DNA of 64,000 nucleotides from Elusimicrobiaceae bacterium (GTDB lineage Bacteria > Elusimicrobiota > Elusimicrobia > Elusimicrobiales > Elusimicrobiaceae). Shown piece by piece: positions 52,435-54,627 of this stretch; within the stretch, counting starts at the first letter, position 1, and each line of letters starts with the position of its first letter. The translations under genes and the position numbers were made by a program. The DNA lies in contig JAEEIL010000025.1 in the NCBI GenBank assembly GCA_016281355.1, positions 1-64,000 of the forward strand. Direction: 5' to 3'. Below the pieces are notes generated by a model, which saw only the letters and a list, made by a program, of their open reading frames with translations, made no database searches and had not been told where the DNA came from.

Positions 52435-52480
52435 AATAGTAAACACCTATTAAAATTGATAAAATAAGTTTATACCAATT

Positions 52481-52528
52481 ACTCCCCGCCCCTTTGTTTA
52501 CAAAGGCGGAGGGGCGGGGGGTGGGGTT
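52481..52528. repeat. REP-like palindromic element, copy 1
   Basis: A 48-base GC-rich unit with an internal dyad (CCCCTTTGTTTACAAAGG core). A second copy at 54548-54595 matches at 47 of 48 positions by eye. A diverged inverted copy lies at 52554-52607, so the pair could fold into a larger cruciform just upstream of the DUF559 gene. Confidence 0.8.
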
Positions 52529-52553
52529 GCAAAATAAAGAAAACCTTTTTAAT

Positions 52554-52607
52554 AACCCCACTCCTAACCTCTCCGCCTTTACAAGTAAAGGGGAGAGGAA
52601 TTATAGG
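52554..52607. repeat. REP-like element, inverted diverged copy
   Basis: Reverse complement of this stretch aligns with copy 1 (shared GTAAAGGCGGAG and GTGGGGTT blocks). Its last 14 bases, AGAGGAATTATAGG (52594-52607), recur exactly at 52959-52972, directly after the DUF559 gene. Confidence 0.7.
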
Positions 52608-52618
52608 AAACAACTAAA

Positions 52619-52960
52619 ATGGTTAAAAAGAGAACTCCTAACATACAAAATTTAGCAAAAACAATGCGTCATACTCCTACAGAATTTGAGCGTTTGCTGT
52701 GGTATCATTTAAGAGATAAATTTCCACAAATACATTTTAGAAGACAATATCAAATAGGGAAATATATTGCAGACTTTGTTTCTCTCAAAAGCAAACTAAT
52801 ATTAGAATGCGACGGAGGCCAACACAGTAAAGAAAAAGACAAAATAAGAGATTTATTTTTGCAAAGTAAAGGTTATACTGTTCTACACATTTGGAATAAA
52901 GATTTAATTACCAATCTAAATGGAATTCTAACTTTAATATATGAACATATAAAAAAGTAG
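52619..52960 (+). CDS. DUF559 (VSR-like) endonuclease-domain protein
   Basis: Predicted product of 113 aa. RRQYQIGKYIADFVSLKSKL (about 40-59) and ILECDGGQHSKEKDKIRDLF (about 60-79) contain the Asp, Glu and His positions of the very-short-patch-repair-like restriction-endonuclease fold. The function of DUF559 proteins is unknown. The gene is framed by a 14-base direct repeat and REP-like palindromes, which suggests a mobile or repeat-linked cassette. No methylase or MutL gene is adjacent. Confidence 0.85.
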   Translation: MVKKRTPNIQNLAKTMRHTPTEFERLLWYHLRDKFPQIHFRRQYQIGKYIADFVSLKSKLILECDGGQHSKEKDKIRDLFLQSKGYTVLHIWNKDLITNLNGILTLIYEHIKK

Positions 52961-52988
52961 AGGAATTATAGGTAATTTTCCTATAAAA

Positions 52989-53016
52989 AAATACCCCTGC
53001 GGTTGCAGGGGTATTT
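52989..53016. terminator. Terminator between DUF559 and the porin gene
   Basis: AAATACCCCTGC / GCAGGGGTATTT stem with a 4-base loop and a minus-strand T-run. It mainly serves the porin gene. Confidence 0.87.
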
Positions 53017-53035
53017 AAATTCACAGATTCTTAGA

Positions 53036-54271
53036 TTAGAACTTGATGTTCATACCAAGTTGAACTGCGGTCGGTGAATGTTTCCAGCTGTGACCAGCAT
53101 TGGTTAAGATAGCACCGGTTAAGTCAAAAGCAACATATTCGTTATGATTGTAAACGACTTTTGCTTCCCAGCTGTTACCTTGCCAGACACCATCCGTTTC
53201 ACCGGTATAGTAATCTAAACCGAAACCGACTTTTTCAAGGCTTGCAAATTTCATGCAAACACCGGCATTGAGGATTTCCCAATTTGCAAGTGCGCCGCCA
53301 AGAATGTTATTAATAGCACCCGGTACACCTTGAGCTACTAATACAGTTCCAAACATTAAACCGGGGCGATAGTTACCGAAAGCTGCAAAATTCTTTTCAG
53401 ATTTCAAGTAAGTTACGCGCGGGGTAATTTGTGTATCATCTGTACCCATAGGTAAAGCTAAGTCAGCTTTAACTTGCCAACCTTTGTCATTACCCAAGGA
53501 ATAGTTCCTTGTATATTCAGCACCCAATTTGAAGTGTTCATATTCAATGGTAGGTTTAACACCCCAGAAACCGAAGTGAGTAACACCTAAACCAGCAGGG
53601 ACGAGAATAGTATCAGTTGCTTCGTTTTTAACTTGATAAATGTAAGCTGATGCTTTGATATTGTCATTAATTTTGACATCTAAATCTAAACCAGCGAGGT
53701 CTAAGTTATCTCCTGTGGTTGGAAGAGCAGGAGCAACAACAGCATTATTCAAAGTGAAATAAGCTGCTGTTAAAGCAAAATTTTCCCCGTTATATCTGAC
53801 AGTTGCACCATCAAGTGATTGATACCCGTTAACAACTGCATAACCAAAATCAGGACCAAAATACATTACAGCGCTTTTTACATCACCGTAATATTGGCGA
53901 CCGACTTTGACTTCTAATGCATCAAAAACATTTGAAATTTTGACAAATGCTTCTGCTACATATGTGTTGTTCCAAACAGTATTAAGGCTTTCGCCAGTTG
54001 TGTAAGGAGCGGCAGCAGCAGGATCGCTACCAAACACATTTCTATGTGCAAATGTTAATTTGGCTTGAACGTCTTCAACTAAGTCTGCTTCAAGACCAAA
54101 TAATACACGGTTTGTTATACCTTTAAGGTTGTTTACCGGGGCTGGAAAAACACCGTGATTTTCATAAGCTAAACCGATGGTTTGAATATCACCGGTGACT
54201 TTTACATTTTCAACAGCAAAGGCAGGTGCAAATAATGCAAATGCCAAAACTGCAACGAGTAGTTTTTTCAT
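53036..54271 (-). CDS. Outer-membrane porin-like beta-barrel protein
   Basis: Predicted product of 411 aa with a signal peptide (about 1-19). The mature part alternates short polar and aromatic strands and ends in phenylalanine (LGMNIKF), as in BAM substrates. KVGRQYYGDVKSAVMYFGPD (about 121-140) and EYTRNYSLGNDKGWQVKADL resemble alginate-export or OprO/P-type porins, but I cannot fix a substrate. AGGAGG ribosome site and its own terminator suggest high expression. Confidence 0.75.
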   Translation of the reverse strand: MKKLLVAVLAFALFAPAFAVENVKVTGDIQTIGLAYENHGVFPAPVNNLKGITNRVLFGLEADLVEDVQAKLTFAHRNVFGSDPAAAAPYTTGESLNTVWNNTYVAEAFVKISNVFDALEVKVGRQYYGDVKSAVMYFGPDFGYAVVNGYQSLDGATVRYNGENFALTAAYFTLNNAVVAPALPTTGDNLDLAGLDLDVKINDNIKASAYIYQVKNEATDTILVPAGLGVTHFGFWGVKPTIEYEHFKLGAEYTRNYSLGNDKGWQVKADLALPMGTDDTQITPRVTYLKSEKNFAAFGNYRPGLMFGTVLVAQGVPGAINNILGGALANWEILNAGVCMKFASLEKVGFGLDYYTGETDGVWQGNSWEAKVVYNHNEYVAFDLTGAILTNAGHSWKHSPTAVQLGMNIKF

Positions 54272-54627
54272 TTTTCCTCCTTTATGAATTAACTAACTGA
54301 CTACCCATATACTTTATATCTTTTTAAAGTAAAATGTCAAGCCCTAAAATAGGAAATTTACAATTTTCATTTATAGCCGTCTAATTCTTTTTGGCAAATT
54401 TTAATTTTTCTTTTCCTAGAGTACCGAGAGTCGCTACGCTCCCATTCTTCTTTGTACTCGTCGTCAAAGACAAATTAAAATTTCCTCAAAAATACTTGCC
54501 GGGTAACGCGCATGGTTTGATTTTGTAAAATAAAAATTCTTCCTTTTACTCCCCGCCCCTTTGTTTACAAAGGCGGAGGGGCTGGGGGTGGGGTTATTGA
54601 ACAGGGAAAATTATATATAATATAAGT
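54272..54627. other. Intergenic region with a REP-like element
   Basis: 356 bases between the porin and the divergent 54628 gene. It holds a GC-rich stretch (54418-54475) with GAGTAC- and AGTCGCTACGCTCCC-type pieces and the REP-like copy 2. No coding frame is visible. Confidence 0.5.
54548..54595. repeat. REP-like palindromic element, copy 2
   Basis: Matches copy 1 (52481-52528) at 47 of 48 positions, same orientation, with one G-to-T difference at position 36. No gene is attached to this copy. Confidence 0.8.

Follow-up and report, generated by a model that had tools for sequence, protein, structure and literature searches.

DUF559 nuclease genes and hairpin-forming palindromes in Elusimicrobiota: a probable family of hairpin-ended mobile elements

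Short palindromic repeats for which no mover is known are abundant in many bacteria, and according to one survey a whole superfamily of repetitive extragenic palindromic (REP) sequences, the CGTC REPs, is apparently without a dedicated transposase (PMC3733652). Here we analyse a 64,000-nucleotide stretch of DNA from an Elusimicrobiaceae bacterium (the window; assembly GCA_016281355.1, contig JAEEIL010000025.1, positions 1 to 64,000 of the forward strand), in which a gene of the DUF559 family (PF04480), encoding a predicted Vsr-type nuclease, lies next to hairpin-forming palindromes, along with relatives of both in 340 genomes of its phylum and in other bacteria. We read DUF559 as probably the nuclease of a family of mobile elements that end in hairpins, with the palindromes as their gene-less derivatives. 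A gene between matching hairpins that also occur without it suggests very small mobile DNA built on a repair-type enzyme; if this is true, a fold otherwise associated with mismatch repair is also able to mobilise DNA, without a DDE, HUH or recombinase enzyme.

Vsr-related nucleases are found in a selfish setting as EDxHD homing endonucleases, from which the DUF559 elements differ by their palindromic ends and gene-less derivatives. Likeness to REPINs and their REP-associated tyrosine transposases (RAYTs) lies in the inverted pair of hairpins, the short spacer, the dispersed gene-less copies, the small single-enzyme gene and the action in trans that has been hypothesised (PMC3116915). The enzyme here, however, is a Vsr-like PD-(D/E)XK nuclease rather than a HUH/Y1 transposase. 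At E ≤ 0.001, no Y1 transposase was matched in the genome that holds the window (G000; 1.5 Mb, 46 contigs) or in G002, G003 and G014, three of its four sister species (the fourth being G004), with five of 14 control genomes positive, E. coli included. The consensus of 32 aligned units contains no GTAG or CGTC tag; outside the arm, its sequence is TTTCCTTATACTCCCCG or nearly so. Because the Y1 gene and the tag sequence were both tested for and not found, we do not class the DUF559 palindromes as a REPIN-RAYT system. Tyrosine-transposase genes with terminal inverted repeats (TIRYTs), taken together with the CGTC REPs, present a small nuclease gene between inverted repeats and the same problem of orphan repeats (PMC3733652), with an enzyme of another superfamily, whereas the repeats here are pyrimidine-armed hairpins. 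Rickettsia palindromic elements lie in frame inside genes (PMC3733652); here it is the nuclease gene itself that lies in frame, in HsdR, HsdM and an Eco57I-type methylase. No report linking DUF559 with palindromes was found in the open-access literature, covered mostly through titles and abstract openings and in places through partial lists; subscription journals and preprints were outside the scope of this search.

DUF559 genes and palindromes in the phylum

Across the 340 phylum genomes, DUF559 was detected in 108 at E ≤ 0.001, and 53 genomes had a match at E ≤ 1e−20 (hereafter strong DUF559). Of 73 matches of at least 80 bits, six in large open frames were treated separately and six were excluded from the edge counts: the copy in the window itself, three copies at contig ends, one containing two stops and one incomplete. 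This left 61 standalone genes in 60 regions, one gene (L119) having an internal stop; 20 more regions comprised the six strong large-frame domains and 14 weak DUF559-like domains. Flanks were taken from the domain edges and so include coding ends, and the hairpin detector was written after the flanks had been viewed, with control windows as the safeguard.

A pyrimidine-armed hairpin within 250 nt was present on at least one side of 57/61 standalone genes, compared with 80/597 random windows and 70/315 other open reading frames, and on both sides of 41/61, compared with 4/597 and 5/315, respectively. Among the weak DUF559-like domains, one of 14 had a hairpin on either side and none on both. 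When upstream flanks were compared with reverse-complemented downstream flanks, inverted repeats scoring higher than the 99th percentile of 2304 control windows from the same loci were found at 45/61 standalone genes, a likeness to the terminal inverted repeats of classical insertion sequences, as well as at all five testable large-frame strong domains and at none of the 14 weak ones. The hairpins carry tails: 49 of the 68 upstream hairpins have a G-rich tail on the 3' side (15 a C-rich tail 5'), and 47 of the 78 downstream hairpins have a C-rich tail on the 5' side (24 a G-rich tail 3'), so that the tails mostly point at the gene. All six large-frame domains have a hairpin at one edge and five at both. 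Pfam matches identify five of the host proteins: two HsdR (one of them truncated by a contig end), two HsdM and one Eco57I-type methylase. At these loci (L155, L156, L157, L158 and L160), DUF559 is in frame inside HsdR, HsdM (two genomes) and the Eco57I-type methylase; in L155 it sits in HsdR just before the GSGKS Walker A stretch, and L156 has the same preceding sequence. The linkers around in-frame DUF559 appear to be encoded by palindromes.

Hairpin copies were counted between genomes with a single pattern, CCCTCTCC(3-16)GGAGAGGG, in which nested loops may count twice. The 340 genomes held 803 counted hairpins, 695 of them in the 53 genomes holding strong DUF559. At least 20 copies were found in 11/53 genomes with strong DUF559 and 0/287 without; the corresponding figures were 15/53 and 3/287 for at least 10 copies, 19/53 and 8/287 for at least five, and 34/53 and 30/287 for at least one. 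Within-family shuffling of labels reached the observed value in 0/5000 trials at thresholds of 1, 5 and 10, a procedure that corrects for kinship in part only, as relatives are not independent. An earlier note, made from the window's letters alone, had likened DUF559 and its palindromes to RAYTs and REPs and had proposed counting element copies against DUF559 presence. Co-occurrence was indeed what such counting returned, and the association is strongly supported, while movement of the palindromes by the nuclease is something we still infer. The same note held that elements abundant in genomes lacking DUF559 would speak against the link; this is not the rule in the phylum, although the eight genomes with at least five copies but no strong DUF559, and E. 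coli, where palindromes outlast the gene (see below), show that it does occur.

In the 18 genomes of the window's genus, units of the window's own type (type A) were present in five (three in G000, one in G002, one in G003, 14 in G004 and nine in G014), and the same five contained arms of a second type (type B). Three of these genomes have a full DUF559 match, one a fragment and one none.

Comparison of sister species provides occupied, gene-less and empty versions of the same sites. The window locus, between an EamA gene and a gene that we take to be porin-like (411 aa, no Pfam match), is empty in G002, holds a gene-less type B pair in G004 and DUF559 in G000; in G003 and G014 the EamA gene has other neighbours, which are uninformative here. 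A similar series was seen in pglX, which is uninterrupted in Planktothrix, carries an in-frame palindrome pair in Pseudanabaena and a palindrome-DUF559-palindrome interruption in Synechocystis; these two are the cases in which empty site, gene-less pair and DUF559 were all seen at one site in different species. The Synechocystis pglX, a gene of the bacteriophage exclusion (BREX) system, is on a plasmid, and its interruption lies at L089 1915–2362. A site beside a tRNA gene is empty in G002, occupied by type A in G000, by type A reversed in G014 and (truncated) G004, and by type B in G003; the occupied copies also carry a terminator-like stem that is absent from G002. At these loci (L004, L046, L208 and L207), the opposite orientations of the type A composite between sister species could have arisen either by in-place inversion or by insertion more than once at a hot spot.

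In G003, DUF559 is at a different locus from that in G000 and lies between two inverted type B arms. The left end of this element matches a gene-less type B copy of the same genome at 68/74 positions (a match of type B, not of the window's type A composite), and gene-less copies that share termini with a gene-bearing copy recall miniature inverted-repeat transposable elements. The best protein match in another genome fell outside the taxonomic family in 28/62 cases.

The window gene, the single DUF559 match in G000, scores 105.3 bits against PF04480 (profile positions 3–108 of 109; cut-off 20.6). D52, E63 and D65 are present in 35/35 aligned sequences and H69 in 34/35, all four occurring in the window protein; we take them to be putative catalytic residues of DUF559. 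The only solved relative at E ≤ 1 in a search of PDB sequences was 3hrl, an 'Endonuclease-Like Protein' (E = 7e−18), which gives the predicted fold. The closest protein came from an uncultured Elusimicrobia metagenome-assembled genome (74%; a genome-contig collection in which only two loci were found), and no DUF559 relatives in viral contigs were confirmed with the query used. Among three sister copies, the ratio of non-synonymous to synonymous substitution rates (dN/dS) is 0.10–0.25, one pair having saturated dS, and the gene is under purifying selection. DUF559 is the only gene between the element ends, with no DDE, HUH, tyrosine or serine recombinase there. The relation of the family member YcjD to PD-(D/E)XK nucleases and Vsr has been published (PMC1189080). 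In Caulobacter, cells that lack a methyltransferase depend on the DUF559 protein VsrA for their DNA-damage response, and VsrA was proposed to be a mismatch-repair nuclease (PMC12907096); this makes DUF559 activity in the cell plausible, though it was read there as mismatch repair.

DUF559 outside the phylum

Sixteen loci from outside the phylum were chosen by hand from 32 records of a plasmid collection. Clear inverted repeats above controls were present at seven of them, namely all three Deinococcus loci and those of Sphingomonas, Qipengyuania, A. lipoferum and S. meliloti. On S. meliloti pSymB (L226), DUF559 is surrounded by a 114-nt inverted repeat, identical at 110/114 positions, and this copy is a good candidate for one that was active recently. 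DUF559 was also seen inside operons, in the orders paaD-DUF559-paaZ in Deinococcus and sufB-DUF559-sufC in Sphingomonas (L088 and L090).

E. coli ycjD belongs to the same Pfam family (145 bits) and is followed downstream by a row of CCCTCACCCCAACCCTCTCCC-type palindromes, dispersed repeats that we presume to be those named Box C. Its frame (L086 2989–3354) ends inside the first palindrome, which encodes its last residues. It differs from the phylum elements in that pyrimidine-type palindromes adjoin it on the downstream side only, and in its alternation with the efflux (eef) operon between sapF and fabI (PMC12817139). A clean empty ycjD site was sought and the candidate rejected: the two inspected strains without ycjD hold the eef operon there.

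That DUF559/YcjD forms a separate class of transposable element across phyla, with a Vsr-like nuclease of about 110 residues, hairpin ends and gene-less derivatives, is a tentative proposal that we hold at slightly below even chances. If it is true, many orphan C/G-rich palindromic repeats of bacteria would be explained, those beside E. coli ycjD included, and DUF559 would also be able to survive within restriction-modification enzymes as a domain read in frame. Through its link with C/G-rich palindromes in several phyla, a small Vsr-like nuclease is a concrete candidate for their mover, and one testable with E. coli ycjD.

A proposed mechanism and rival explanations

We propose that the element consists of a hairpin with a G-rich tail, the Vsr-like nuclease gene, and a C-rich tail with a hairpin, the tails lying mostly towards the gene; from copies measured by eye it would span roughly 450–550 bp, with DUF559 as its sole protein gene. 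Palindromes found singly, or as inverted pairs of ~135–180 nt, would be its gene-less derivatives. Most likely, the nuclease would recognise arms that have been extruded, whether single-stranded or as cruciforms, and nick them at the base of the hairpin or at the terminus, after which repair or replication would copy the unit to a new site without obvious target duplication; gene-less pairs would be moved in trans by the nuclease. The window locus would then hold an end-less DUF559 copy into which, between leader and start codon, a gene-less type A composite has inserted. Anatomy, statistical association, occupied and empty sites and purifying selection on the gene are the observed parts of this scheme; recognition, nicking, cleavage and movement by DUF559 are its conjectural parts.

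Several observations weigh against it. Transposition was not observed, and inspection by eye showed no target duplication at five bounded composites or against empty sites. Strong DUF559 is missing from 30 of the 64 genomes in which any hairpin was counted and from three of the 18 with at least 10; conversely, 19 of the 53 strong-DUF559 genomes have no counted hairpin, G000 included, its palindromes being of another type. Within the genus, G002, with a single unit each of types A and B, gave no DUF559 match, G004 has its 14 type A units and only a DUF559 fragment, the gene of G014 is bracketed by hairpins other than its nine type A copies, and G009, G015 and G016 have DUF559 with no type A or B unit. 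In the inverted-repeat test, one of the 2304 control windows scored as high as 53. Outside the phylum, eight of the 16 loci did not exceed their controls in inverted-repeat signal, another was marginal, and the palindromes of E. coli, N. gonorrhoeae and Synechocystis were seen by eye only. The E. coli palindromes occur in 5348/5426 genomes (median 14 places), whereas the ycjD query matched 3365/5426, and the palindromes therefore outlive the gene. Finally, the PF04480 genome search gave no match in the E. coli control, yet ycjD scores 145 bits; some DUF559 calls of 'absent' may therefore be misses, unless that strain lacks the gene.

The main rival to a mobile element is homing, in which palindrome pairs pre-exist, DUF559 cuts a pair and the gene is copied between the arms, gene-less pairs being empty homing sites. 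EDxHD is listed as a homing endonuclease family (PMC6083498), the series of empty site, pair and gene fits both directions, and survival of the palindromes after the gene in E. coli agrees with it. Yet composites consist of one left and one right arm, and simple insertion into such a pair would leave both, whereas the G003 copy has the right-type arm on both sides, inverted, which counts against the simplest form of homing; the tracking of DUF559 presence by high palindrome copy number also counts against homing, and we consider it rather unlikely.

Alternatively, DUF559 could be a very short patch (VSP)-type mismatch-nicking enzyme kept for the cell, beside which palindromes accumulate as terminators or recombination scars. 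The mismatch-repair role proposed for Caulobacter VsrA (PMC12907096) and the purifying selection on the gene would both be expected of such an enzyme. Its patchy occurrence, with several copies in some genomes, would not, nor would its different genomic places in sister species, its in-frame insertion into HsdR and HsdM, the 28/62 best matches outside the family or the inverted-repeat brackets around it, all of which leave host repair with a low probability. Still less probable is that a RAYT/Y1 transposase moves the palindromes with DUF559 as passenger or chance neighbour: Y1 genes do occur in 175/340 phylum genomes and in 10 of the 11 with at least 20 counted hairpins, but such copy numbers were reached by 10/40 Y1-positive genomes with strong DUF559 and 0/135 without, hairpins at DUF559 edges are far above controls, and G000, G002, G003 and G014 have no Y1 match, for which reason a RAYT as the mover in G000 was rejected.

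The window locus

Around the DUF559 gene of the window, the palindromes reported in the earlier note proved real. Its two 48-base units (52481–52528 and 54548–54595) differ by one mismatch, or by two if shifted one base, its diverged inverted copy lies at ~52549–52607, and its exact 14-mer, AGAGGAATTATAGG, was recovered on both sides of the gene by a scan of the window. The description of a gene framed by palindromes needs amending, in that the first two are arms of a single composite and the third lies ~1.6 kb past the gene, from which the 411-aa porin-like gene separates it. The arms at 52481 and 52549 together form one REPIN-like composite of ~135 nt directly before the DUF559 start codon. 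Alignment of 32 units from the window, G000 and the four sister genomes distinguishes two arms with TTTCC-type ends, and the palindrome core is rare in G000 (three copies at ≤3 mismatches). Folded as single-stranded DNA (ssDNA), the composite gives a hairpin, a tail-tail helix and a second hairpin (z = −5.9; 0/200 shuffles as good), in contrast to the solo unit with flanks (54536–54612), whose fold is unremarkable (z = −1.0; 34/200 shuffles as good).

Matches to AGAGGAATTATAGG with ≤1 mismatch are expected 0.02 times by chance in shuffles of the window, and its second copy begins within the TAG stop codon of the DUF559 gene. The earlier note had taken this repeat as an argument for a mobile cassette, an argument that does not hold: it is with AGAGGAATTATAGG that the right arm of the composite terminates on its outer side. 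A target-site duplication was rejected because gene-less composites of other species (G004 and G014) have the 14-mer at their outer end too. The leader of the G003 DUF559 gene (G003:C16:2157–2194), just upstream of that gene, matches the window upstream of the composite (Table 1), which therefore sits between the DUF559 leader and start codon in G000. Terminal inverted repeats were not seen at the window copy itself, unlike at 45/61 genes in the phylum, and this copy, with no hairpin ends of its own seen, seems decayed.

Table 1 Features of the window around the DUF559 gene
Feature	Position	Strand	Evidence
Leader region common to the G003 DUF559 gene	52436..52473	+	blastn match
Type A composite, arm 1 hairpin, 14-bp stem	52484..52519	+	ssDNA fold; 48-base unit; 32-unit alignment
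Composite centre, arm 1 G-rich tail pairing with arm 2 C-rich tail	52520..52562	+	ssDNA fold
Type A composite, arm 2 hairpin (the diverged inverted copy)	52568..52598	-	Fold, alignment
AGAGGAATTATAGG, outer terminus of the composite's right arm	52594..52607	+	Alignment, shuffles, gene-less copies
DUF559 / YcjD-like Vsr-type nuclease gene (predicted), 113 aa	52619..52960	+	Pfam, 3hrl, alignment, dN/dS
Second AGAGGAATTATAGG, overlapping the DUF559 stop codon; lone terminus without hairpin	52959..52972	+	
Solo type A arm 1 unit, not adjoining DUF559	54548..54595	+	

Between the DUF559 and porin-like genes, a perfect 12-bp hairpin at 52989–53016 is a probable terminator, and a similar hairpin is present at the empty G002 site. 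A scan of the window at Rfam gathering thresholds returned four tRNAs and no other RNA family. Adjoining the solo palindrome at 54548, positions 54345–54530 hold a different dispersed repeat with an inverted-repeat core, which we do not tie to DUF559 because G002 has many copies of it and no DUF559 match. This repeat occurs at at least 13 other places in G000 and is also present in G002, G003, G004 and G014.

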